Made by a program: the position numbers and the translations under genes. 21,099 bases of DNA from a virus: positions 1 to 21,099 of the IMG/VR virus record IMGVR_UViG_3300009156_000271; one strand, given 5' to 3'. Below the pieces are notes generated by a model. It did no database searches and had not been told where the DNA came from. It saw only the letters and a program-made list of their open reading frames with translations. Shown here piece by piece: positions 2,500 to 21,099 of the stretch; position 1 is the first letter of the stretch; each line of letters begins with the position of its first letter.

Positions 2500-3750
2500 A
2501 TGGCTGTTGTTGAATCTCAGGTAGCAGCACTTGAATTGGAACACGTAGTTCCGAAGGTGCGCGTCCTGTTCGAGCGGGATGACAAGTTCTACGCGAACAT
2601 CAAGAAGCGTGATGTGGAGAAGATTTCACATCGCCAGATGCGCGTGCCGCTTGAACTGCGTCCGGGTGGTTCATTCCAGTACTTCAATCCAGATGGTGGT
2701 GATCTGGGTCGAGGTGGTGGTCCCACATTCGACAAGGCTGTACTTAATTGTGTGTTCTGCTCAGAGAACATTGAGTACACCAAGTTGACGCAGTGGGCCA
2801 CTGATGATGCGCGTAAGGCCATTGTGAATTCTGTACGTCGTCTGACTGCTACTGCTCTCGACGAGATGCGTAGGCAGCTTGATTCTCAGATGATGCAGAC
2901 GGGTGATGGTGTCATTGGTGTTGTTACCACTGATACTCCTGCTGGTGGATCTAATGTCATCACTCTGACCACTGATGGCTTCGGTGCGCGTCTTGTGCGG
3001 TTTGGTCAGACCGTGCAGATCTTTGATACTACTCTTACCACCAAGCGTGGTGAAGGTACTATCACTCTGTGGGATGTTGAAAACAAGGTAATCAACATCA
3101 CTCCACAGATTGCTGGTGTGGCACCTACGGACAAGATTGTGACTGCTGGTATTGCAACTCCAGCTGCACTTCCTGCTCTGTATGGTGTTCCATACCATCA
3201 CTCTAATGCATCAGCTGGAACGTGGCTTGGATTCAGCCGTTCCACAACTCCGGAGATTCGAGCTAATCGAGTCAATGGTGGAGGCGTCGCGCTTACCCTT
3301 CCACTTCCACGGTTGGCAATCAACAAGATTGGTAATCGTGTAGGTATCGAAAACAACTTCAATCCTACTGCGTGGTTGCATCCTTGCCAGATGCAGGCGT
3401 ATGAGGAAATCGGTCAGCTTGTTTCCATTATCCAGAAAACAGCCAAAGAAGAAGGGCTGAATATGTATTTTGGGAACAACATGCAGCTTGCGGGTGCCTC
3501 AATGAAGGCATCTTATAGCTGGGATAAGACACGCATCGACTTCATTGTCGATGAAGTGTGGGGGCGTGGTGAAATCCTCCCCATCGGCTTCTACACTACC
3601 GATGGGCGGAAGATTTTCGAAATTCGTGGCGCATCTGGTGGTGTGGCTGCGGCGGAAATCTTCTACATGGTTGTGGGTATGCAGACATTCGTTTCGAATC
3701 CTGCGGCTTGCAGCTACATCGACGCCCTCGCAGTTCCTGTTGGTTACTAG
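2500..3750 (+). CDS. Major capsid protein
   Basis: This 416-residue protein builds the icosahedral shell. The N-terminal region contains PLELRPGGSFQYFNPDGGDL and a Gly-rich turn (residues 65-75). A long amphipathic helix at about 99-133 looks like the spine helix of an HK97-type coat protein. Beta-rich segments (140-230) and a C-terminal domain with a repeated hydrophobic pattern follow. Length and position after a scaffold-like gene fit a major coat protein; the HK97 fold is assumed from family knowledge, not proven. The ATG is preceded by AAGGAG at 2488-2493, six bases away, one of the best ribosome binding sites in the window. Codon use stands out: 23 of 24 arginines use CGN codons, whereas later genes lean on AGA/AGG. 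This fits selection for heavy expression. Two in-frame stops (TAG 3748, TAA 3760) close the gene. Confidence 0.85.
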   Translation: MAVVESQVAALELEHVVPKVRVLFERDDKFYANIKKRDVEKISHRQMRVPLELRPGGSFQYFNPDGGDLGRGGGPTFDKAVLNCVFCSENIEYTKLTQWATDDARKAIVNSVRRLTATALDEMRRQLDSQMMQTGDGVIGVVTTDTPAGGSNVITLTTDGFGARLVRFGQTVQIFDTTLTTKRGEGTITLWDVENKVINITPQIAGVAPTDKIVTAGIATPAALPALYGVPYHHSNASAGTWLGFSRSTTPEIRANRVNGGGVALTLPLPRLAINKIGNRVGIENNFNPTAWLHPCQMQAYEEIGQLVSIIQKTAKEEGLNMYFGNNMQLAGASMKASYSWDKTRIDFIVDEVWGRGEILPIGFYTTDGRKIFEIRGASGGVAAAEIFYMVVGMQTFVSNPAACSYIDALAVPVGY

Positions 3751-3792
3751 TTAATCTCTTAATGGGTGGCGTGGTGGGAGAAAGAGGCTGAC

Positions 3793-4086
3793 ATGATTCC
3801 AGGAACAACTACCAAACTCAGTGAATCCTCAGTAGTAGCAGCTGATAAGGTTGCAGCTAAGAGTGACATTCTGATTGTCACTACTGCTGGAACCATCAAC
3901 ACTATCCTGCCCAACTTCGGTGGTGGTCAGTTTAGTGGATTGGTGATTCTGCTTCCTACTATTGCTGGTGTGATTCTTGGCACCGCTGGTAACGTTGCTG
4001 TTGGTGCCACCTTGACTGTTAATCGTCCCATCTTGCTTGTGTTCGTAAAGTCACTTGGCAAGTGGTACATTCATACTGTCGTCTAG
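3793..4086 (+). CDS. Putative head decoration protein, copy 1
   Basis: This 97-residue protein directly follows the capsid gene. It begins MIPGTTTKLSE and contains DILIVTTAGTINTILPNFGG, then alternating hydrophobic residues ending in GKWYIHTVV. The pattern suggests a small all-beta fold. A diverged copy of the same protein lies at 4171-4479, sharing the start MIPGTTTKL(S/T)E, a D-I pair, a P-x-F-G-G-G motif, a G-N pair and a W-x-I near the end. Small beta proteins next to the capsid gene are often decoration or cement proteins; that role is inferred from position and fold pattern only. I chose ATG 3793 because AGAGG at 3783-3787 lies five bases upstream and because it aligns with the start of the second copy. 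A GTG at 3766 would add nine residues (AWWEKEAD) with no counterpart. Confidence 0.6.
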   Translation: MIPGTTTKLSESSVVAADKVAAKSDILIVTTAGTINTILPNFGGGQFSGLVILLPTIAGVILGTAGNVAVGATLTVNRPILLVFVKSLGKWYIHTVV

Positions 4087-4089
4087 TAT

Positions 4090-4160
4090 GTAGGTGGGTG
4101 TTAGTTTGTGGGTGCCTTTACTCTCCCCTGAGTAATGGACTAGCACTCACCTACTTTTTT
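4090..4160 (+). terminator. Terminator-like long hairpin with T6 tract
   Basis: GTAGGTGGGTGTTAG (4090-4104) pairs with CTAGCACTCACCTAC (4140-4154) over 15 positions, 13 Watson-Crick and two G-U. Six T's follow at once (4155-4160). Within the enclosed loop, TTACTC (4118-4123) and GAGTAA (4130-4135) form a second hairpin with the loop TCCCCT. The shape fits a Rho-independent terminator, but the 35-base loop is large for one, so it may be leaky. The ribosome binding site of the next gene (GGAGG, 4161-4165) begins directly after the last T. It lies in the only sizeable gap of the window, just downstream of the capsid and first decoration genes. Confidence 0.7.
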
Positions 4161-4170
4161 GGAGGCAGTG

Positions 4171-4479
4171 ATGATACCAGGAACCACAACCAAGCTGACT
4201 GAAGCGCGTATTAAACTAGTAGGTACTGAGATACATGTCAGGACTGACATTGTGTATGTAGAAGGTGGTCCTTTGATTGAATGGATTCATCCGCACTTCG
4301 GTGGGGGTCATCCGGGTCTACTCGTCCTAGTTGCTCTCACTGAATCAATTGACTTACGTGGGCAGCCTAACGGCAACATCTATGGAGTCAGTACCATCAT
4401 TCTTCATAGGTTTACTACTCTCGTTTACTCCAAGATGTTTCAGGGTTGGTTCATCGGTTCAGGTGGGACTATCAGCTAA
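4171..4479 (+). CDS. Putative head decoration protein, copy 2
   Basis: This 102-residue protein is a diverged tandem paralogue of the gene at 3793-4086. It shares MIPGTTTKLTE at the start, then T-D-I, a P-H-F-G-G-G motif, L-V-L-V, a G-N pair and a C-terminal GWFIGSG. Most other positions have changed, so the duplication is old. A small all-beta virion protein is likely, and a head decoration or vertex role is inferred. The start at 4171 is set by GGAGG (4161-4165) with a five-base spacer; a TTG at 4159 is rejected. A terminator-like hairpin separates it from copy 1, so it may be made at a lower level. Its stop codon overlaps the next start as TAATG (4477-4481). Confidence 0.6.
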   Translation: MIPGTTTKLTEARIKLVGTEIHVRTDIVYVEGGPLIEWIHPHFGGGHPGLLVLVALTESIDLRGQPNGNIYGVSTIILHRFTTLVYSKMFQGWFIGSGGTIS

Positions 4480-5009
4480 TGGAACCTATCACTACTCTCA
4501 ATCAGCGTCTCATTGATTATTTTGGAACAGATGTAATATCTGGTAAAGCTATATTCCGTGTCGTATGGGCGGATGATATGGTTGAGAAGCGTAAGATGGA
4601 TACTCTCGACTCAGGGGTGGGACTACTCACCCCTGAAGTTCGAGAGGTGAAGAAATACAGCTATTTGCACGATGTCCATGTGCTTGAACGCCTAGTCATT
4701 GTGCCAGACGAACAACAGGTGGAACTAGCTGGCATGAAAATATCCTATGAGCCTCTTTGGGTATTTGTGGACAGTACAGGTAATCCACTTCCACCCAAAT
4801 GGGAACCAATTAAGCTCATAGTTGATACATTACATGCGGCTCTCGGTCGTGGTGGATTAAAAAAGTATGTCGATCCGGACACCAGTGAAGGTGCTCAGGA
4901 GGAACGGATCACTAAACTACATGATGAACTATTTGGAAATGAAACAGAAGTAGGCGATGCACTTCGCTATAAAGAGGCTGTCGTAGTTCCTAACAAGGAG
5001 TTTAAGTAA
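4479..5009 (+). CDS. Hypothetical structural-module protein, 176 aa
   Basis: I do not recognise this protein. It starts MEPITTLNQRLIDYFGTDVI and is rich in mixed alpha/beta segments, with a basic and acidic middle (PEVREVKKYSYLHDVHVLER) and a conserved-looking WVFVD followed by GNPLPPKWEPIKLIVD. No signal peptide, membrane segment or catalytic motif is visible. The ATG at 4479 overlaps the previous stop as TAATG. An upstream in-frame start at 4446 would lie inside the preceding gene and is less likely. The end overlaps the next gene in the same TAATG manner. Location between decoration and adaptor genes suggests a head-completion or connector-associated role, which is inference. A strong hairpin is embedded in the coding sequence at 4603-4646. 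Confidence 0.7.
   Translation: MEPITTLNQRLIDYFGTDVISGKAIFRVVWADDMVEKRKMDTLDSGVGLLTPEVREVKKYSYLHDVHVLERLVIVPDEQQVELAGMKISYEPLWVFVDSTGNPLPPKWEPIKLIVDTLHAALGRGGLKKYVDPDTSEGAQEERITKLHDELFGNETEVGDALRYKEAVVVPNKEFK
4603..4646 (+). repeat. Strong intragenic inverted repeat
   Basis: Two nested perfect stems lie inside the 176-aa gene. CTCTCGA (4603-4609) pairs with TCGAGAG (4640-4646), and TCAGGGGTG (4611-4619) pairs with CACCCCTGA (4628-4636). The hairpin loop is eight bases, and the stems are separated by a one-base by three-base internal loop. That gives 16 paired positions with no mismatch inside either stem. No T tract follows, so it is not a normal intrinsic terminator. An mRNA processing or pausing site is possible, but the function is unknown. 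Confidence 0.6.
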
Positions 5010-5704
5010 TGCAAGTAGGTGAATTTCCCGGACTTCAGCACGCAAATAATCGGCGAACTATACGCGCGCCTATCAATCCAATGGATAAGTCGACTGTTGT
5101 GTCGATTCTACCCAAGGAGATTCATGAGCGAAAGCCCACGATTCAGCCAGGATTCTTTGATTTGGGACCTGGTAGCTTTGATTCTCCTAGCATTCTTGTT
5201 GTTGGTCCTAGTTCTTGGTGGAGAGAGATAGATGAGAATCAGCCTCTACTGGAGATTCCAGTCTCTAGTATTCAGATTGCTGATTCAATCGTCAAGGACT
5301 ACTTGAATGGATTGCTGGCAGCCAACATGAGTGACCAGATGCCGGGTCTATTCTATGTCCCCGGTGAATACACCATCGAGAAGTTGAAGAAGGAACATAT
5401 GCCTTTGCTTGTAGCTGCTCAGGCTAGACAGAGGAAGTGGTTCCTTGAGTTGATTCGCATTGCTGATATTCTGTGGAGTCGAAGTAATGGAAATCCTCTC
5501 GCCATTAGTTCGGATGCGCGTCTCGGATGTAAGGAATTGAATATCTCTAATAAACCGTGGTTGGGTGACTTGCAGACTGCGGAACTGGTACGTTGTGTTG
5601 CTTGTGGTTCTCTCAGAAATCAGCTGTATCCTATCTGTCAGACGTGTAAGGCTATTGCAGATCCAGCAAGAGCCAAGGAACTCAACATTCAGTTCGCTCA
5701 GTAG
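5009..5704 (+). CDS. Zinc-knuckle protein of the connector module, 231 aa
   Basis: The C-terminal part holds four cysteines, C196-x2-C199-x10-C210-x2-C213, in RCVACGSLRNQLYPICQTCK. This is the spacing of a small zinc ribbon or knuckle. The N-terminal half is Pro- and Ser-rich with a GPGSFDSPSILVVGPSSWW stretch, and a Lys/Arg-rich helical middle (about 120-155) precedes the zinc site. The protein has no visible nuclease or protease motif. Zinc ribbons usually serve nucleic-acid or protein contacts; which applies here is unknown. The ATG overlaps the previous stop as TAATG and has AAGGAG at 4995-5000, eight bases upstream. Context is between capsid and adaptor genes, so a virion or assembly role is more likely than regulation, but neither is proven. 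Confidence 0.7.
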   Translation: MQVGEFPGLQHANNRRTIRAPINPMDKSTVVSILPKEIHERKPTIQPGFFDLGPGSFDSPSILVVGPSSWWREIDENQPLLEIPVSSIQIADSIVKDYLNGLLAANMSDQMPGLFYVPGEYTIEKLKKEHMPLLVAAQARQRKWFLELIRIADILWSRSNGNPLAISSDARLGCKELNISNKPWLGDLQTAELVRCVACGSLRNQLYPICQTCKAIADPARAKELNIQFAQ

Positions 5705-5725
5705 TTACAGGAAGGAAAAAAAGAC

Positions 5726-5992
5726 ATGGCCGGACATCAGATCACTGTTACGGGTAAGACGGGACCGAATCGAGCCAATGCTGCATTGGTTATTGATCGA
5801 GTAGAGAATGTTCTATTTGATCTGGAACATGCGCGATTGCAGGTTGAACAGGCTCCACCTGCATTGCCTGTACCTCCTGTACCTCCTGGTACATTGCCGA
5901 TGGGTAGTAACATCAAGGAGTATGATCTCGTTGGTGTGACCACTGTCACCTGCACCGTCACTGCTGGTGTGTACGCCTTCGTTGTATCTTAG
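5726..5992 (+). CDS. Small hypothetical structural-module protein, 88 aa
   Basis: I do not recognise this protein. Three parts can be seen: an N-terminal section (MAGHQITVTGKTGPNRANAA, then a helix to about residue 42), a Pro-rich hinge with repeated P-P-x-x-P units (about 44-58), and a short C-terminal beta segment rich in Thr and Val (YDLVGVTTVTCTVTAGVYAF). The helix-hinge-beta design resembles small virion proteins that carry a C-terminal beta trimer, but this is inference. AGGAAGGA at 5709-5716 lies nine bases before the ATG. It is followed 13 bases later by the next gene, within a run of small genes between the zinc-knuckle and adaptor genes. Confidence 0.65.
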   Translation: MAGHQITVTGKTGPNRANAALVIDRVENVLFDLEHARLQVEQAPPALPVPPVPPGTLPMGSNIKEYDLVGVTTVTCTVTAGVYAFVVS

Positions 5993-10644: not shown

Positions 10645-10956
10645 ATGGCCAGAGGAGCAACCACAAGTGAAGGTTCAGGTGGTGAAGGTATTCATCACTT
10701 CTCTACTGTTAGATTACGCGCGACTGGTCAGGGTAGTCTAAAGATGGTAGTTCATTCACTAGATTTCATGAGATTCAAGACATTGACACCTCTACCCTTG
10801 GTTGATAGGACTCGAATTCAACCAAATCGACTAGTGAATTTCGTCGAGCAGCGTGCGTGTTTTGAGTTTCAAGTAACTGAACTAGATGAATATTTTAGAA
10901 TTAATCGAATTGTAGTTTACATGAAGGAAATTTACACGTCTCATCCGGGTGCATAA
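10645..10956 (+). CDS. Stand-alone nozzle C-terminal-like protein, 103 aa
   Basis: The sequence includes [35 protein letters not shown], a phrase [12 protein letters not shown], and [20 protein letters not shown]. From memory this resembles the end of nozzle or tail-tubular B proteins in other environmental podoviruses, where such a segment follows the propeller in the same polypeptide. Here it is separate, with its own start at 10645 and AGGTGA at 10633-10638 six bases upstream. It has a two-base gap after the 565-aa gene (TAATCATG) and overlaps the fibre gene as TAATG. No frameshift signal is visible. It may therefore be a naturally detached domain that assembles with the 660-aa nozzle. Without a search this is a family inference; the alternative is a separate small tail protein. 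Confidence 0.6.
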
Positions 10957-13184
10957 TGGCCTTCCAGAAACCCAAAGTACAGCCTAAATTTGCTGACTTG
11001 AAGGGAATTCTGTCTCAAACTCAGCTAGATAACACTAGTTATCAGTTGATGCAGACCTTGATTGAACGCCTAGTTCAATATCAGGATGTAATGACTGATG
11101 AACTGGCTAAGAAGGGTGAAGGTGGTGAAGCATTAAAGGGTGAAAAAGGAGATAAAGGTGAACCTGGAACACCCGGTGGACCTCCGGGACCACAAGGACC
11201 AGTAGGACCTACAGGTGCAACAGGACCAGCAGGACCAACAGGTCCAAAAGGTGATACTGGTAATACTGGTGCAACTGGTCCACAAGGTCCTATAGGAAAT
11301 ACAGGTCCAGCTGGTCCCACAGGTCCAGTAGGACCACAAGGTGAAATTGGACCTATCGGACCACAAGGTCCTACAGGTGCAGATTCTACAGTTCCCGGAC
11401 CTGTTGGGCCACAAGGTCCACAAGGTATACAGGGACCAGTAGGTGCAACTGGTGCAGATTCAACTGTACCGGGGCCTGCTGGACCTCAGGGTATTCAAGG
11501 TCCAGAAGGTCCTATCGGTCCTGAAGGACCAGAAGGTCCAGCATCTACTGTACCCGGTCCAGCAGGACCACAAGGCCCAATAGGTCCAGAAGGTCCACAA
11601 GGTCCAGAAGGTGTAGCAGGATTACATCAGGCTACTCATCAGCCTGGTGGAACTGACTTCCTTGTTAATAATGCATGGCTGAATGTAGAGAATCAGTTCT
11701 CTGCTAATCAGATGATTAACAAGGCCCTCCCAACTCTATTCCTTTGGGATCAAGCACAACAGGCTAATCTAAGAAATTTCGGTATTCAAAATACTGGTCA
11801 GGCTATTAAATTTATTCCATTCAGTGATGTTGGTGCATTCAATGGAGGTATGTTAACTATTGATCGTGATGGTTCTCTCGGTACTGGTGGTAATATTAGT
11901 GGTAGTAACTTATTCATGGGTAGTAATGCTCAAATTACAGGAGATTTGACCGCTAGAAGTCTAGCTACTACTAATGGTAATCTTTTCGTTAATGGTGCAG
12001 TTGCAGGAATTTGGTTGCAAGATACTGATGGACTTGTTAATGAGAAGAAAACTCTAATTTTCAATAATGATAAAACATTTGGTGTCAACTTCTATAATGA
12101 TGATGGAGTTACTGCTACTAATTTCATTAATGTAGGTCGTTCTGGTAATGCAGTTACTAATGTTGATGCTCATGGAGCATGGACATTCTCTGGTAATATG
12201 CTTGTTGGTGGTACAATAAAGTCTAACTCATCTATCCACTCTAAAAGTGGTCAGTATCTTGCTAGTGAAGGAAATCAGGGAATTGTAATTGGTCAGGGTA
12301 ACTGGACATCGTATTTTAATAACTATGAATTTCGTAATGCAGCTAGTACATTAGCTGTTGCTCAATTAGATGGTACTAAACTTACACTACCAAATGCAGG
12401 TCAGGCACTATATGTTGGAGGTGGTCCTGGTGTTGGAATGGGACTATATAAGTCAGGTGCAGAAGCATATTTTGGTTGCGCTCAGGACTCTACTACTCGT
12501 TGGTATAATGCAGCTGGTACTGTTAAACTGATGGATTTGTATCATCCTGGAACTCTATTTCCTCAGGGTGGAATCATTGTTCCAGTTGGATCTGCTGCTA
12601 ATCCTAGTGTTGTAGTAAGTGGAACTACTGCAGGTCACTATTATAATACAGCTAATGGTTCATTTGAACATGGTGTTAATCACAATAATGATAATCGAGC
12701 TATTGTAAGAGCTTTCAATACTGCAAGTGGTAAAGTAGATATTCTATGTGGAACTCTTGTACTCCTTAGTTGTGGTCCAGGATATCAAGTACTTGTAGGG
12801 GGACATTTTAGTGGTACTTCAGATACTGGATTGTACTGTGGTACTGCTGCACTTAGGTGGAATACAGTCTATTCACTGTATGGTGTTCAAACTAGTTCAG
12901 ATGTACGAGCCAAGAACATCCTCGGAGAGATACCCGATGCACTAGACATCGTGGATTCAATTGGAACTATGATCGCTGGATTCAGTGATGATGAACAGCA
13001 TCGAGTATTTCCAATGTTCTCCGCACAAGACATTTTAGAGAAACTAGATCAGCGTCTTGGAACTAGTGTCGTATCGACAGAGAGACCAGATGCACTTAGT
13101 TATCTACCAGATAAGATAGTTCCAGTTCTTTGGAAAGCACTTCAACTGTTACATGCGCGTGTCAAGACATTAGAAGGAGCATAA
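10956..13184 (+). CDS. Collagen-like tail fibre with C-terminal S74 chaperone
   Basis: This 742-residue protein has four parts. Residues 1-52 are a helical N-terminus ([12 protein letters not shown]...[12 protein letters not shown]), probably the trimeric attachment to the tail. Residues about 54-222 are collagen-like Gly-x-y triplets, interrupted three times by the same short phrase, (D)STVPGP. The motif [11 protein letters not shown] (224-234) is a form of the H-x-x-T-H-x-P-G-G-x-D element often seen in phage fibres. A beta-rich shaft and tip (240-640) follows. The C-terminal 98 residues contain SSDVRAK (647-653) and end with a helix ([20 protein letters not shown]). This is the Peptidase_S74 intramolecular chaperone. 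In that family the chain self-cleaves at a Ser-Asp pair after folding, here S648-D649. The fibre is the most likely host-recognition protein. It begins on a TAATG overlap. Confidence 0.85.
11115..11621 (+). repeat. Collagen-like Gly-x-y coding repeat
   Basis: This part of the fibre gene encodes roughly 55 Gly-x-y triplets (fibre residues about 54-222) dominated by Gly-Pro-x and x-Gln-Gly. At the DNA level it is a degenerate nine-base pattern such as GGTCCACAA and GGACCACAA with varied third positions. Three non-collagen interruptions, (D)STVPGP, are seen at residues 143-148, 169-174 and 197-202. The repeat is a likely site of length change by recombination or slippage. Confidence 0.85.
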
Positions 13185-14997: not shown

Positions 14998-16970
14998 TGG
15001 CATACGGTATCCAGAACCTTCGCAGACCTACTGTATACGGTGGTTACGGTAGTTATAGTGATGAACCATCTGCTAGTGTAGGTAGAAATACGCAGACCTA
15101 CAATGATGACCCATTCTTTGATGCTCCAGAACAACCAACTAGTTCTGGACTTCAGCAGATTGGTTCTCAGCAGAGTAGCGGATATGGACTAGGGTCTGAA
15201 CCTGAAAGTCAGCCAGAACTAGCTAATATCAAGGCACCTACTATTGAGGCCCCGCGTGTGGATCCCACTAATAGGGAAAGTAGTGCAGAAGATATCATGA
15301 ATATAGTCAATAGGGTGTATACCCCTGCGACTAAATCCAGAGATAGATATGACACACTACTTGATACAGCACCAGAGCGTAATAAACCCGGTATTGGACG
15401 CGCACTGGTGGCTGCTGGTCTATCACTCAAGGCACAAGATCCACTAGCCACCACTGAAAAGGTGATGTATGCACCTTACTATCGTCAGCAGGCTGATTGG
15501 AAAGAAAAGGCTGAACCATTCTACAAGGCTGCCCAGTTGGAAAATACAGCCAATGTCAATGAGAGGAATCTCGCTGGTAATGTAGTGACTGCCACTACTC
15601 AGGCTAATAAACTAGCCGAAGCCGCACGTCAGGCTGATCAGAGGGCTGAAATTGCACGTACAACTAATCGTATTCGTGAGGCTCAGGCTGCTGGTCTAGA
15701 TGTTAAATTGGATGGTGATAGATGGGTTGGATTTGATAATCAGGGTAGAATGCATGAACTAGGTACATCTAGAGGTATGACACGGGAACAGATTATTGAT
15801 GCTCAGGGTAGATGGAATGTGAAGGCATCAGGTGCTCGTGCTGATACAGCAGCTGCTAATGCTCAGGAAACACCAATCGAATATACTGACCCAAATACAG
15901 GTAAGAAACAGTGGGGTTATGCAAGAGGTGGAAGAATCTATCCATTGGAAGTAGCTCAGCCAGGTGAACGTCCGAGTGCGCGTCCTTCTGCTGGACCAGG
16001 AGTAGGAACTAGTGTACCCATTACTCCTCCGGGTACTGCTTCTTCAACTACTCCACGCGCTCCGGGTAAGCCTGTAACAGGTGCATTGAATAGAATTGGT
16101 ACTGAGGATGCTGCTAAGACACTCACTCCATTGGAACAGCGAATGGAGACTAACAATAAAATTGCAGGAATTCTGAGTCGTCATCCTGATTGGAATAACT
16201 TCATTAACTATAACTCAGATACTGAGTTGTACGAAGGTATGGGTGCTCCACCTCAGCCTCCTAAGAGGGGTTTGTTTGGACTTGGTGGCGGTAGTGATGA
16301 GGATTGGCAGCGATATAAGGATGATATGGACGGATATAATTATCTCCGTTCACTCCTTCATCCGGGTATGGCACCATATCCAACAGTAGGTGGATCTAAT
16401 GCAGAACAGAAAGCTGCTAGAGAGAAAGCCAAGACTACTACTGTCCCATCAGCTACTACCACTACTCCACCTCCAACTGGATTAGGTCCATCTGGATATC
16501 CTGCTACTAGTTCTGCTCCTACTACTTCAACTATTGGACCTTCTACTGCTCCAAATTCAGCCAAGTCACTTCCGGGTGGTGGTTCAACTACTAAATCTAA
16601 TTCAGATGGTACATGGATGCCACCTAGTCAGGATAATAAATTTGCATTCCTTCCTGACTCTTGGAATAAGTATCTCAATAGAGCCTATAAGGAACCTGGT
16701 ACTACACCTACACCTAAACCAGCTACTCCTAAGAATGTTGTACCTCAGGGTCCAGTTCCGTCTAAATCAACTGCGCCTCAAGCAACTGATAATGGTCCTG
16801 ACCCAATTCCTGAACGAGCCGCAGCAGCTATTCCAAGAGGCTCAAAAGTTGATGTCAATGGTAATACCTTCAGATATACAGATCCGCAAGGTAATGTCAG
16901 ATACTACAATAGGGAAACTAATGGATGGGTTGATTATGATCCTCTGTCCGGTCCAAGAAGGAGACGATAA
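14997..16970 (+). CDS. Internal virion / ejection protein 2 (probable), 657 aa
   Basis: The second gene of the ejection set. A Tyr/Gly/Ser-rich N-terminus (1-95) is probably disordered. A helical core follows (about 97-230): NIVNRVYTPATKSRDRYDTL, then GIGRALVAAGLSLK, then MYAPYYRQQADWKEKAEPFY and an Ala/Gln/Arg-rich coil. The rest (about 310-620) is very rich in Pro, Thr, Ser and Gly, interrupted by a charged segment near 415-460. It ends with a small beta section (about 615-650) containing GSKVDVNGNTFRYTDPQGNV. No enzyme motif is seen. I chose ATG 14997, the overlap TAATG with the previous stop; ATG 14991 would add two residues. The stop again overlaps the next start (16968-16972). Disordered, elongated proteins are usual among ejected internal proteins, but the family is not confirmed. 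Confidence 0.6.
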   Translation: MAYGIQNLRRPTVYGGYGSYSDEPSASVGRNTQTYNDDPFFDAPEQPTSSGLQQIGSQQSSGYGLGSEPESQPELANIKAPTIEAPRVDPTNRESSAEDIMNIVNRVYTPATKSRDRYDTLLDTAPERNKPGIGRALVAAGLSLKAQDPLATTEKVMYAPYYRQQADWKEKAEPFYKAAQLENTANVNERNLAGNVVTATTQANKLAEAARQADQRAEIARTTNRIREAQAAGLDVKLDGDRWVGFDNQGRMHELGTSRGMTREQIIDAQGRWNVKASGARADTAAANAQETPIEYTDPNTGKKQWGYARGGRIYPLEVAQPGERPSARPSAGPGVGTSVPITPPGTASSTTPRAPGKPVTGALNRIGTEDAAKTLTPLEQRMETNNKIAGILSRHPDWNNFINYNSDTELYEGMGAPPQPPKRGLFGLGGGSDEDWQRYKDDMDGYNYLRSLLHPGMAPYPTVGGSNAEQKAAREKAKTTTVPSATTTTPPPTGLGPSGYPATSSAPTTSTIGPSTAPNSAKSLPGGGSTTKSNSDGTWMPPSQDNKFAFLPDSWNKYLNRAYKEPGTTPTPKPATPKNVVPQGPVPSKSTAPQATDNGPDPIPERAAAAIPRGSKVDVNGNTFRYTDPQGNVRYYNRETNGWVDYDPLSGPRRRR

Positions 16971-19900
16971 TGCCTCAGTGGACTACAATCTCTAATTCTT
17001 GGGGTGCTACCGAGGATAATTGGAAACCTGTCTCTAATAGTTGGGGGAATGATAAACCTGATATTGGCTTCAGTCCAACGTATGAAAATGAACCTCCTCA
17101 GGTTAGGAAGTATGATACTGGATTTCATCCAACATACGAGACTGAACCTGAACCAAGTGCAATAAGTAAGGGAATCGACTGGTTAGATAGTCTTTGGATT
17201 AATCAACCTATTTCTAAATCATTAGGTATTGATCTACCTGGAATGGGTAGAAAGGTATCTAATTACATTACTGACCCTAATAGTGATTTCTTCGATCCAC
17301 TTCTGAAGTATACTCCTGCAGGTATATTGGGAGCTAGACCAGAAGTACAGAGGGGATTTCTTGGAGGTTCAATAGAAGGTGCTAGTCAAGTTGCTGAAGG
17401 ATTTACTACTCCTCTTAATATAGCTACTATTGGATTTGGTGCAAGGGCGCAGGGACTGCTTAAAGCAGCTAAAGCACTAGATGAAGCAGGAGATACAGTA
17501 GGTGCATTAAGAAATTTCAATGCAGCTCAAAAACTTATCACAGCTGATAAGGCTTTCGGTGTTGCTCAAGTACCTACTGGTGCGGCACATGCGTATAAAG
17601 GTTATGAACAGGGAGATCCTACTCAAATAGGGTTTGGAATCGCTGAAATGGCTGGAGGTGCGGGTGCAGCTGGGCAGCATCGTCCATCCTATACTCCAGA
17701 ACCAGGACTAGCAAAGATTGCAGAAGCTCCTAGTATCTATAAGGATCTTCCACTCACTCAGGATTTGGAATTTAATCCTCATGCGTATCAGCAACAGGTG
17801 GATCAGTTCGATTCACCTGGTAGGAATATGCTTACAGATACAGCTAATGATATCGAAACTAAAGACAGAATTCTTCAGGGTCATGTTGCCAGTACTGACA
17901 TGCCCACATTCGATGTAGATCCATTTGCCCCTATCACTGATAGACTTCAGGGCATGGATATCGCTACTCGTATCACTGATGCTCCACCAATTCCCCCACC
18001 AATATATGGTGATATCAATAGGTCATTTGACCAGCCTGATTTGGGCATGGGAGGGGATACATTAAGAGATCCATCTATTCCATCCAGAGGATTTGGAATG
18101 GAACAAGGTGGAGATATGGCATCTGGTGGTGATTGGTCACAAAGGCCACCCAGACAGCCACTTCGTGGTGATGAAGCTATTCCTGAGATGGCTTTCCAGC
18201 CTGATGAGGGTAAAGCTACTAATGCGGAGGGTATGGAATCCTTCCTACCGGGAGAGAATGTAAGTAATCCCACCTCTAGAGCTGCTATTAATGAGGAAAC
18301 TAGAGTAGCACCTGAAGGTGGTATCAATGCAATCCTAATCAGTCATCCAGAACTACGTGATGAGGCTCTAGCTATCTATCACGAATCTAATCCTGAGATG
18401 ATTTCTCAGAACTTTGCTAATTATGTGAAACAAAGAGAAGCAACTTGGGGTGCATATTTTGAGGCACAAAACAATAGATTGAGGCACGGTATTCCCGAAC
18501 CTCCTGAGGTTGTAGCTGCATTCAAGAGAGCAGCGGCACTCAGTGATTTAGCTCAAGCCAAGTATGAGCGCGCATCATCGCGTATCTTGAGAGGTAGAGC
18601 TGAAACAACAGGTAGACCTAGAGGTGGACTGTTTGATGCACCTGATGAGTTCCATCCTACTCAGTCGGATGTAGATACAGGTATGGGTGGAGATCCACTC
18701 AGAGAACAGCCTACTTCACCCACATTTGGACATGAACAGGGTGGGGATATGGCTACTGGTGGGGGGATTCCACCAGAAGATTTGAGAACTAGACTGCGTA
18801 GAATCTTGGGTAGAGATCCTACTCAGGAAGAATTGAATGCTGCTGCTGGAAGTACAGATGAGAGTATTATCAATCAGATAGAAGATGCGCGCTTGCGTGA
18901 GCAGATTGGGGCGGGCGAATCTAACATTCCCCTAAACCCCACTGAAATAGCTATAAACAATGTACTCCATGCATATGCTCGAAATCCAGCTCTGGCATTG
19001 ACAGAGATGAATAAGTACTTGGCACATCTGCCGCCTGCTGAAATTCGCAAAGCACAGCAACTGATTATTCAAATTACTTCTAAACTTCATGCTGACAATA
19101 AGGGTAAACTCAGGATACCTGACCCTCTGGAATCTGAGCCACACGACCCTGCATGGGAAGAAACTCCTGCGGAAGCCTTAGAGGAAGATATTCCAACTGT
19201 TAATATCGGTGGAATTATTGATGCGAAGAAACAAGCACTACGTGACATGAGTTATGACCCATCTGGCATGTCTGGATGGGAAGCTGATATGACTCTACAG
19301 AGAGTCAATAGAGCAAGAGAAGTTCCACCTGGTGAACAGATGATGTTGGGTCTGGAAGATCAGAGACCAGCTAATGTAATACCCGAAAGTGATCAGGTAA
19401 GACAGAAGGATGTGCTTAAAGTCGCTACTTTGATGGAAGGTGGTCTAGCTGGAGAAGCACAGAAGATTCGTGCCCTTCATGACATGTATGGTAGACCCAT
19501 CACTCCATCTGAAGAAGTGGCTGCACTTGCAGAACACTATACAAGGATGGGAGATACAGCTAAGGCTGCAAAATACAATGAACTAGCTGATAGATATAGT
19601 GCAGTTGAACAGGGTCAGCAGGACATGTTCAAGCCTAATCGGATGGAAGGAGGTTCTGAAGATCCAAACAGGATGAGTCAGGAATGGATTGATGAACAGA
19701 ATGGAAGAATTCCACCTAAAGGACCACTTGGAATTCGACCTACTGGTGGTGCGCGTGGTATGGTTCCTCAAGAACCAGCGAATCCTAGACAGTCCGCAGC
19801 TGTAAAGAGACAGCAGGCTGTAGATGAAGTAATTCGACTTGAGAATCAGGCACGTGAATTTGAGAAACAGGCTAAAGCAGCGATGGATACGGGTAATCCT

Positions 19901-21099
19901 GAACTAGCAATGCAGCACGCGGCTGCTAGTCAGAAACATCGTGACATGGCTGCAACTGCAAATATGAAGTTTGCTAAAGAAATGAAAGGTAAGATGAAGG
20001 AGGCTGAACGCTTCGAGTCAATGGCACGCGCGCGTGAAGCTGCTGGTGACAAAGAAGGTGCATCTAGACTTAAGGCACAAGCTGAAACTGAATATCTGAG
20101 AGAGGCAGGTCAACTAGAACTGCGCTTCCGTAAGAATCTTTTGGCACAGAAGATGCGGGAAATGGGGTTTGAACTATCTGACAAGACAATACACGCTATT
20201 GATGACATGGATCCTGCTGATCTATCACACCATCTTCAGAAGGATTTCGCCGAACTACTGCTTTCTAGTGTAGATGAGGGTAAACCGGGATTAGGTGTGG
20301 AAGATGTTCCTTCAGGTCGTCCACATCTAGCGGAAACTCACATCACTATTCGAGACAAGAATGGTAAGCCAATTGCTCATGCTGAAATGCAGACTAATCG
20401 ACTTACTGGAGAAGGTGATCTCATTAATTGGGCGGTAAGTCAAGAAGCTGGAATGGGTCAGAAGGCTATACTTCCACTTGCTATGGAATTGGAAAAGCGA
20501 GGTGGACTAGTACCCAAGGGACCATATAGTGCAGACACCAAGAACTTCCTTCAGAGACTAGCTACTGCTGTGAAAGAGAGTAGGTTGTTTAAGGAAGAAA
20601 CTGGAGCCTTGAATCTGGGTAATTGGACTGGTGGTAAATGGTGGGAAAGACTGAAGGATAGAGCTGGATGGGGTCAGGGATACAAGACTAATAAGCGTCA
20701 GAGAGCACTTGCAAAACAGCAAGTTCAGTGGATTGATGAAGCACTGGCTATGCCTGCTAATATGACAACTACTGGAGACTTGTCTGCACCGGGTAGACAG
20801 GGACTCATGTTGTTTCATACCCCTGAATTCTGGCACGCTGCATATACCATGTTCAAGGGTCTTAGTCCAACAGCATTTAATCGAATTGATGCTGAACTGA
20901 AGAATATGCGTATCATGCAGTCTCAGGGTGTTGACCCCAAAACTGGTAAGCCACTTCCATCTATGGCTGAACAGTGGGGAATGAAGATGTTTGCACCAGC
21001 TAGTCAACCTGGTCCACATGCTAAAGGTGCAGCAAGTAACTGGTTGGAGACAGGTAGATTCTTCAATCAGGATATTCCTTACATCACTAAGGGATGGGC
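16970..21099 (+). CDS. Giant ejected/polyvalent protein with GNAT domain (3' end outside window)
   Basis: Open to the last base: 1376 codons and no stop. It begins on a TAATG overlap with AAGGAG at 16958-16963, six bases upstream. Parts in order: N-terminal short repeats (SNSWG twice; GFxPTYExEP twice, residues 8-60); a Gly/Ala-rich hydrophobic section (about 110-235), possibly membrane-interacting; a long disordered region (240-610) with a duplicated D-x-G-M-G-G-D...F-G-x-E-Q-G-G-D-M-A motif at about 357-387 and 569-598; TPR-like helical hairpins near 848-880 and 945-1063; a GNAT-like domain (about 1120-1200) whose Q1158-E-A-G1161-M-G1163 fits the acetyl-CoA loop Q-x-x-G-x-G; and TTTGDLSAPGRQG (1266-1278) followed by HTPEFWHAAY, which resembles the conserved block of large phage polyvalent proteins. 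I see no transglycosylase motif. It is probably packed in the head and delivered into the host. Confidence 0.7.
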   Translation, partial: MPQWTTISNSWGATEDNWKPVSNSWGNDKPDIGFSPTYENEPPQVRKYDTGFHPTYETEPEPSAISKGIDWLDSLWINQPISKSLGIDLPGMGRKVSNYITDPNSDFFDPLLKYTPAGILGARPEVQRGFLGGSIEGASQVAEGFTTPLNIATIGFGARAQGLLKAAKALDEAGDTVGALRNFNAAQKLITADKAFGVAQVPTGAAHAYKGYEQGDPTQIGFGIAEMAGGAGAAGQHRPSYTPEPGLAKIAEAPSIYKDLPLTQDLEFNPHAYQQQVDQFDSPGRNMLTDTANDIETKDRILQGHVASTDMPTFDVDPFAPITDRLQGMDIATRITDAPPIPPPIYGDINRSFDQPDLGMGGDTLRDPSIPSRGFGMEQGGDMASGGDWSQRPPRQPLRGDEAIPEMAFQPDEGKATNAEGMESFLPGENVSNPTSRAAINEETRVAPEGGINAILISHPELRDEALAIYHESNPEMISQNFANYVKQREATWGAYFEAQNNRLRHGIPEPPEVVAAFKRAAALSDLAQAKYERASSRILRGRAETTGRPRGGLFDAPDEFHPTQSDVDTGMGGDPLREQPTSPTFGHEQGGDMATGGGIPPEDLRTRLRRILGRDPTQEELNAAAGSTDESIINQIEDARLREQIGAGESNIPLNPTEIAINNVLHAYARNPALALTEMNKYLAHLPPAEIRKAQQLIIQITSKLHADNKGKLRIPDPLESEPHDPAWEETPAEALEEDIPTVNIGGIIDAKKQALRDMSYDPSGMSGWEADMTLQRVNRAREVPPGEQMMLGLEDQRPANVIPESDQVRQKDVLKVATLMEGGLAGEAQKIRALHDMYGRPITPSEEVAALAEHYTRMGDTAKAAKYNELADRYSAVEQGQQDMFKPNRMEGGSEDPNRMSQEWIDEQNGRIPPKGPLGIRPTGGARGMVPQEPANPRQSAAVKRQQAVDEVIRLENQAREFEKQAKAAMDTGNPELAMQHAAASQKHRDMAATANMKFAKEMKGKMKEAERFESMARAREAAGDKEGASRLKAQAETEYLREAGQLELRFRKNLLAQKMREMGFELSDKTIHAIDDMDPADLSHHLQKDFAELLLSSVDEGKPGLGVEDVPSGRPHLAETHITIRDKNGKPIAHAEMQTNRLTGEGDLINWAVSQEAGMGQKAILPLAMELEKRGGLVPKGPYSADTKNFLQRLATAVKESRLFKEETGALNLGNWTGGKWWERLKDRAGWGQGYKTNKRQRALAKQQVQWIDEALAMPANMTTTGDLSAPGRQGLMLFHTPEFWHAAYTMFKGLSPTAFNRIDAELKNMRIMQSQGVDPKTGKPLPSMAEQWGMKMFAPASQPGPHAKGAASNWLETGRFFNQDIPYITKGW
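18038..18766 (+). repeat. Duplicated peptide motif inside the giant protein gene
   Basis: Two copies of one motif lie in the disordered part of the giant protein: DLGMGGDTLRD...FGMEQGGDMASGG (coding 18038-18130) and DTGMGGDPLRE...FGHEQGGDMATGG (coding 18674-18766). Spacing between the two half-motifs is nearly the same in both. At DNA level the copies differ at many third positions, so conservation is at protein level. They could be binding sites or processing sites; nothing decides between them. Confidence 0.6.

Follow-up and report, generated by a model that had tools for sequence, protein, structure and literature searches.

What do the two small, related genes directly behind the capsid gene of an uncultivated soil virus encode, and what does the strong hairpin between them do? 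The window analyzed here is the whole 21,099-base stretch of the IMG/VR soil-virus record IMGVR_UViG_3300009156_000271, with the head genes at its start. The features concerned are as follows.

Upstream of the MCP gene: partial head gene, presumably portal (our own label; no family match)
Also upstream of the MCP gene: scaffold-like gene (our own label; no family match)
2500 to 3750, + strand: major capsid protein (MCP) P0003, 416 aa, matching PHROG 14242 "major head protein" (E 4e-5)
3751 to 3792, + strand: P0001 leader, without a hairpin element (sequence comparison by eye)
3793 to 4086, + strand: P0001, type-A protein of 97 aa, ATG at 3793 and TAG at 4086; predicted beta-sandwich plus a conserved N-terminal arm, MIPGTTTKLSE
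4088 to 4156, + strand: structured RNA element, first base 1 nt past the P0001 stop
4155 to 4160, + strand: T6 run after the stem, resembling an intrinsic terminator in this genome only and not conserved
4171 to 4479, + strand: P0002, divergent type-A paralogue (A'), 102 aa, ATG at 4171 and TAA at 4479; predicted fold as in P0001

The P0002 TAA and the following gene's ATG overlap (4479), and a profile search found no third family copy in the whole window. The original prediction for this locus had placed the two genes after the capsid gene, and the PHROG 14242 match of 2500 to 3750 agrees with this. Four divergent MCP relatives match the same PHROG (E 4.6e-9 to 3.5e-4), and MCP identity to the relatives compared is 62 to 97%. 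Farther into the window, a 231-aa protein encoded among head and neck genes (5009 to 5704) has a C-terminal CxxC...CxxC zinc-ribbon-like stretch with a weak Pfam match (E 0.066). A collagen-like gene at 10956 to 13184 (Pfam Collagen, 4e-16, and tail fiber PHROGs) is the likely real tail fiber gene, and a very long open frame of 1376 codons at 16970 to 21097, which runs off the record and has no Pfam match, perhaps encodes a virion protein that is internal or ejected.

The homology between P0001 and P0002 extends over their whole length, with 34% identity and 56% positives over 96 aligned positions (BLASTP, E 8e-15), so the similarity goes beyond their common start. Residues 1 to 9 are identical, and the pair has a PNFGGG/PHFGGG core. 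The coordinates, the lengths, the MIPGTTTKL start and the P-x-F-G-G-G core had all been given correctly in the original prediction, and its description of the genes as tandem diverged paralogues holds.

Searches of IMG/VR with the family gave 103 distinct records, the window included. All 103 contain an MCP gene with one to three copies of the family, in nearly every case directly behind that gene; since these records were chosen through the family, only the MCP linkage is informative in this set. A second set was for this reason anchored on the MCP alone, and its 79 loci, after removal of 13 short and 9 duplicate ones, left 57 distinct IMG/VR records. Every one of the 57 has at least one family copy after the MCP gene (one to three each), and thus the position expected of decoration or capsid spike proteins in a head cluster, beside the MCP gene, was found in 57/57. 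With copies labeled A or B by their N-terminal pattern, the arrangements were BA (33), B (8), A (6), AB (6), AA (2), BBA (1) and BB (1), so that two or more copies occur in 43/57 and at least one A together with one B in 40/57. Single-copy relatives, a search for which had been put forward as a check of the original prediction, do exist (B alone in 8/57, A alone in 6/57). Two copies are therefore not obligatory, and a scheme with two sites is not essential. Additional copies of the family, strongly diverged, were seen in L141 (6277 to 6877), L063 (5679 to 5948), L098 (8701 to 8994) and L126 (8741 to 9034), those in L141, L098 and L126 lying about 1 to 3.4 kb past the first copy. A tblastn search of 50,697 phage records with two MCPs and three family proteins found no cultured relative, 84,980 species genomes of bacteria and archaea yielded no MCP relative that could give a clue to the host, and no paper on this family was found among open-licence papers.

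The 14 single-copy records would suit the view that P0001 and P0002 are redundant and that P0002 is a relic kept by chance. We regard this as very improbable, and it is already disfavored by the codon counts: between the window and its relative L007, P0002 differs by 39 synonymous and 6 nonsynonymous codons, which indicates a real gene under purifying selection. The frame is open in three records, and P0002 is better conserved than P0001.

In a tree of 168 copies, A and B emerge as two old groups, the 68 A rows sitting together on one side of a branch with strong support (SH-aLRT 100); the one row labeled B inside the A branch, taken to be L098_2, starts with MIPG and is a mislabel by the pattern. 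P0002 lies inside A (SH-aLRT 98), nearest to L043_2 and far from P0001, in an alignment whose 107 columns leave the inner forks weak. The window thus has two type-A copies (A and A') and no B, an arrangement seen only in the window and in L007/L005, and the 47.7-kb L007 record contains no third family copy. On the MCP-gene tree, three A-only records are among the nearest kin of the window and L007, in one and the same starred clade of seven rows, which suggests loss of B in part of that clade. P0002 probably fills the place of B in relatives. The old duplication of the original prediction accordingly stands as far as the age of the paralogues goes; it does not stand as a plain A-A tandem, the usual pair of the lineage being A plus B.

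AlphaFold2 single-chain predictions (pLDDT 92 for P0001 and 86.8 for P0002) give the same all-beta sandwich with matching strand order for both proteins, where unrelated folds would have spoken against the original prediction. The best solved relative of both is a tailspike tip, 24qj (Z 8.1 over 89 residues at 3.0 Å for P0001, and 7.7 for P0002, a structural Z below 8 being one that may mean merely a common arrangement). Other solved relatives common to the two are StcE, CBA120 TSP4 and a T4 baseplate chain. The C-terminal domain of the capsid spike of Pseudomonas phage Pa223 (9ny6) aligns through residues 190 to 292 with all of P0001 (Z 6.1, 92 residues, 3.6 Å) and also with all of P0002 (Z 5.6), values that again fall in the range where only an arrangement may be common; the spike, named by its PDB title, differs in its 294-residue chain, its other domains and its 4 to 8% identity. 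PF25692 (Phage_depo_C), the Solidus gp83 tailspike 24qj, CBA120 TSP4 and T4 5iv5_AC have the same predicted fold over the whole domain, and P0001 and P0002 are both predicted to contain the complete beta-sandwich of this trimeric spike-tip type. PF25692-type tips are domains within longer tail proteins; in the present family the fold is the whole protein and is encoded in the head gene cluster.

No convincing match to PF25692 was obtained, since only 2 of 126 family members hit it (best E 0.0032) and neither is P0001 or P0002, and none of the 126 matched a named PHROG or Pfam decoration family at E 0.01. One of the 126 matched a PHROG named "tail fiber protein" (5.3e-6) and one a minor tail protein (0.005). 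A sequence search of solved structures returned nothing meaningful, and neither the lambda gpD beta-tulip nor Ig-like decoration proteins appear among the fold matches listed. Matches to viral models (BFVD) are mostly parts of collagen-like, fiber and uncharacterized proteins. In short, the predicted fold says "spike or fiber tip", and the gene position says "head".

One can ask whether P0001 and P0002 are short tail fibers, receptor-binding tips or parts of a head-tail fiber whose genes lie beside the MCP gene by chance. In collagen-like fibers and tailspikes, this beta-sandwich makes up the C-terminal tip (the BFVD best matches and 24qj), single family members match tail fiber PHROGs, and rapid divergence would also fit receptor binding. 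However, the place right after the MCP gene is invariable (57/57), proteins of 97 to 102 aa have no fiber shaft, the window has its separate collagen-like fiber gene (10956 to 13184), and one solved relative, 9ny6, is the tip of a capsid spike, in a fold that occurs in tail proteins too. We judge a tail fiber role unlikely.

Surface exposure is also suited by the pace of change, for the family proteins vary far more than the MCP. Between the window and L007, the MCP gene has 137 synonymous and 13 nonsynonymous codon differences, and P0001 has 19 and 41. Among pairs with at least 85% MCP identity and enough synonymous change, which overlap one another, the MCP is more conserved than A in 386/387 and than B in 342/343; in a greedy choice of 26 pairs without a common record, the MCP is the better conserved in 20/20 pairs that have A and in 22/23 for B, with one tie. 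Within type A, the arm is better conserved than the domain (mean top-residue frequency 0.79 versus 0.58), and its first 11 residues are the best conserved stretch. Such a pattern would fit an arm binding to the conserved MCP.

Recombination appears to have reshuffled these genes. Up to near the end of the MCP gene, L005 is 98.5% identical to L043, which has the pair B-A, and beyond that point it is 92 to 100% identical to L007, which has A-A'. Its apparent junction, with L043-like sequence upstream and L007-like sequence downstream, lies at about 5700 to 5800, near the 3' end of the MCP gene. L005 looks like a natural recombinant, judging from these identities; if it is not an assembly chimera, nearly the same MCP (96.6% at the DNA level) works with either pair. 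Gene swaps look likely elsewhere, for example between L022 and L031, where A has 68% identity with 0.57 synonymous and B has 94% with 0.20. A recent swap of P0001 between the window and L007 was also considered and is not needed, because the synonymous shares among identical residues are alike in the MCP (137/403), P0001 (19/55) and P0002 (39/96).

The hairpin announced between the two genes was confirmed as a strong one at about 4088 to 4156. The segment 4080 to 4175 folds at -38.3 kcal/mol (z -4.4), and none of 200 shuffles was as stable. The element has an outer stem of 16 to 18 bp, a 5' bulge with GGG, an inner stem of 6 to 8 bp and CCC in the loop. Because the inner hairpin and the bulge occupy its loop, a simple terminator scan (loops of 3 to 8 only) did not list it. 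Relatives have the same architecture, with almost no 3' bulge, between the stop of a head gene and a type-A gene. A descriptor written after sight of the relatives' copies matched 15 times on the + strand and once on the - strand in 925 kb, with 0 matches in shuffled sequence, and each of the 15 + copies has an A gene just downstream. In the 345 kb of the MCP-anchored set it matched 15 + (15 of 57 records), 0 - and 0 shuffled; the two sets have contigs in common, the elements of L169, L175 and L193 being new in the second. Two further likely elements, in L129 and L142, were seen by eye and fail the descriptor. The 13 distinct elements start 1 to 7 nt past the preceding stop and end 14 to 45 nt before the A start. 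The element covaries: at each of inner-stem positions 1 to 8 there are two to four Watson-Crick pair types, in most cases three or four, and the outer stems are similarly varied; these counts rest on each element's own fold, as MAFFT misaligned the inner stems, and only the variety of pair types is informative, pairing itself being guaranteed. An Rfam search of window positions 3700 to 4600 returned only RF04177, at 19.6 bits against the 105 needed, and 0 matches in the loci of 7 relatives. A broad inverted-repeat scan gave 2646 matches, mostly in coding sequence, and was uninformative.

Is the element an ordinary intrinsic terminator whose sole effect is more P0001 than P0002 mRNA? The window itself has a very stable stem directly followed by T6, and no sigma-70-like promoter was detected between the element and P0002. 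A comparable effect on mRNA is that of the T7 capsid-gene terminator. Moderately T-rich tails also follow the elements of L005/L007, L017, L048 and L136. Five or more T in a row, however, follow only 1 of the 13 distinct elements, that of the window, and the elements of L003, L024, L036, L042, L043, L050, L132 and L138 have no T-run. Since the T-run is not kept with the hairpin in relatives, the element is not simply a terminator, and a terminator would need neither the conserved GGG bulge and CCC loop nor the fixed place before type-A genes. We consider an ordinary terminator doubtful, if a serious candidate. The term terminator-like in the original prediction thus describes the stem and T6 of the window well, and does not extend to the element as a class.

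Mapping the presence of the element onto the MCP-gene tree takes 7 changes, which all fall within one half, so the element has been gained and lost, or has moved. It precedes P0002 in the window but the counterpart of P0001 in L007, where a short plain hairpin precedes the counterpart of P0002. By eye, the P0001 leader of the window resembles the spacer 3' of the element in L007, L017 and L048 (CTCTT...AAAGAGG), and in several relatives the ribosome site can be covered by a fold of the spacer 3' of the element. Hairpin-driven read-through of the P0001 TAG was rejected because the frame meets a stop within six codons (by eye). Two other motifs were noticed. The first, about 10 to 15 nt past the B stop, consists of GGGG(G)C, a GCGC-type stem, CATC, an A-rich loop and the stem partner, and its sites in locus coordinates are L067 4843, L092 1957, L098 5322, L109 4230, L112 5342, L118 5331, L128 5261 and L141 5320; a strict scan found it 13 times on the + strand, 2 on the - strand and 3 in shuffled sequence. 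The second is a possible hairpin with a loop around ATACAGGGGGCGAA, in the 1-2 gap of L028 and after the A gene of L050.

Our favored reading, which as a whole we hold to be somewhat probable, is that the family comprises lineage-specific, one-domain proteins of the head surface, either decoration proteins or short spikes, with differing sites or roles, and that the RNA element tunes the downstream copy. Each of P0001 and P0002 is probably trimeric, as their fold relatives are; the N-terminal arm would dock on the capsid, with the beta-sandwich exposed to the host or the environment, and the two copies probably differ in site or role, hexamers and a rarer position such as vertices, the example in the original prediction, being candidate sites. 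The hairpin would most likely lower or tune expression of the downstream copy through RNA structure at the gene boundary and control of the ribosome site, and in the window the T-run may add termination of some transcripts. A bolder version, in which a new phage regulatory RNA with a pseudoknot between the GGG bulge and the CCC apical loop, together with a second hairpin across the ribosome site, controls the ratio between two paralogous capsid spikes at different sites, and the pair is a cassette exchanged whole against the same MCP, seems to us rather unlikely. The GGG/CCC pairing is only a proposal, as neither varies among the descriptor matches, which require both.

Known phages offer partial parallels. 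Pectobacterium phage PhiM1 has alpha-claw (gp44) and alpha-paw (gp43), which come from separate, consecutively numbered genes, have a common capsid-binding motif and attach, at a ratio of 5:2, to different (quasi-)2-fold sites that are determined by how near a pentamer lies (PMC11440229). These are two decoration proteins from separate genes, but they are helical-bundle dimers, with no fold in common with this beta-sandwich family. Schitovirus B2 gp45, a 99-aa homotrimeric decoration protein at the quasi-sixfold axes (PMC11654681), resembles P0001 and P0002 in size and stated role; no sequence or fold link to them was found. Shigella phage Sf14 carries, on PMC11821841, gp33 and gp20 at different sites of one capsid, although these differ in having mutually unrelated folds, a beta-tulip trimer and a Hoc-like Ig protein. 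The original prediction of two related decoration proteins is therefore backed by the predicted fold, the MCP-gene linkage, variability of the exposed type and the PhiM1 parallel, and lacks a match to a named decoration family.

If the favored reading is right, an uncultivated lineage coats a slow-changing capsid with one to three fast-changing paralogues, and its natural chimeras would reveal which decoration sets the capsid accepts. The lineage would then be a natural test bed for site sharing by paralogous decoration proteins of a phage capsid, and through the RNA element one could study how phages adjust the ratio between two structural proteins that are related.
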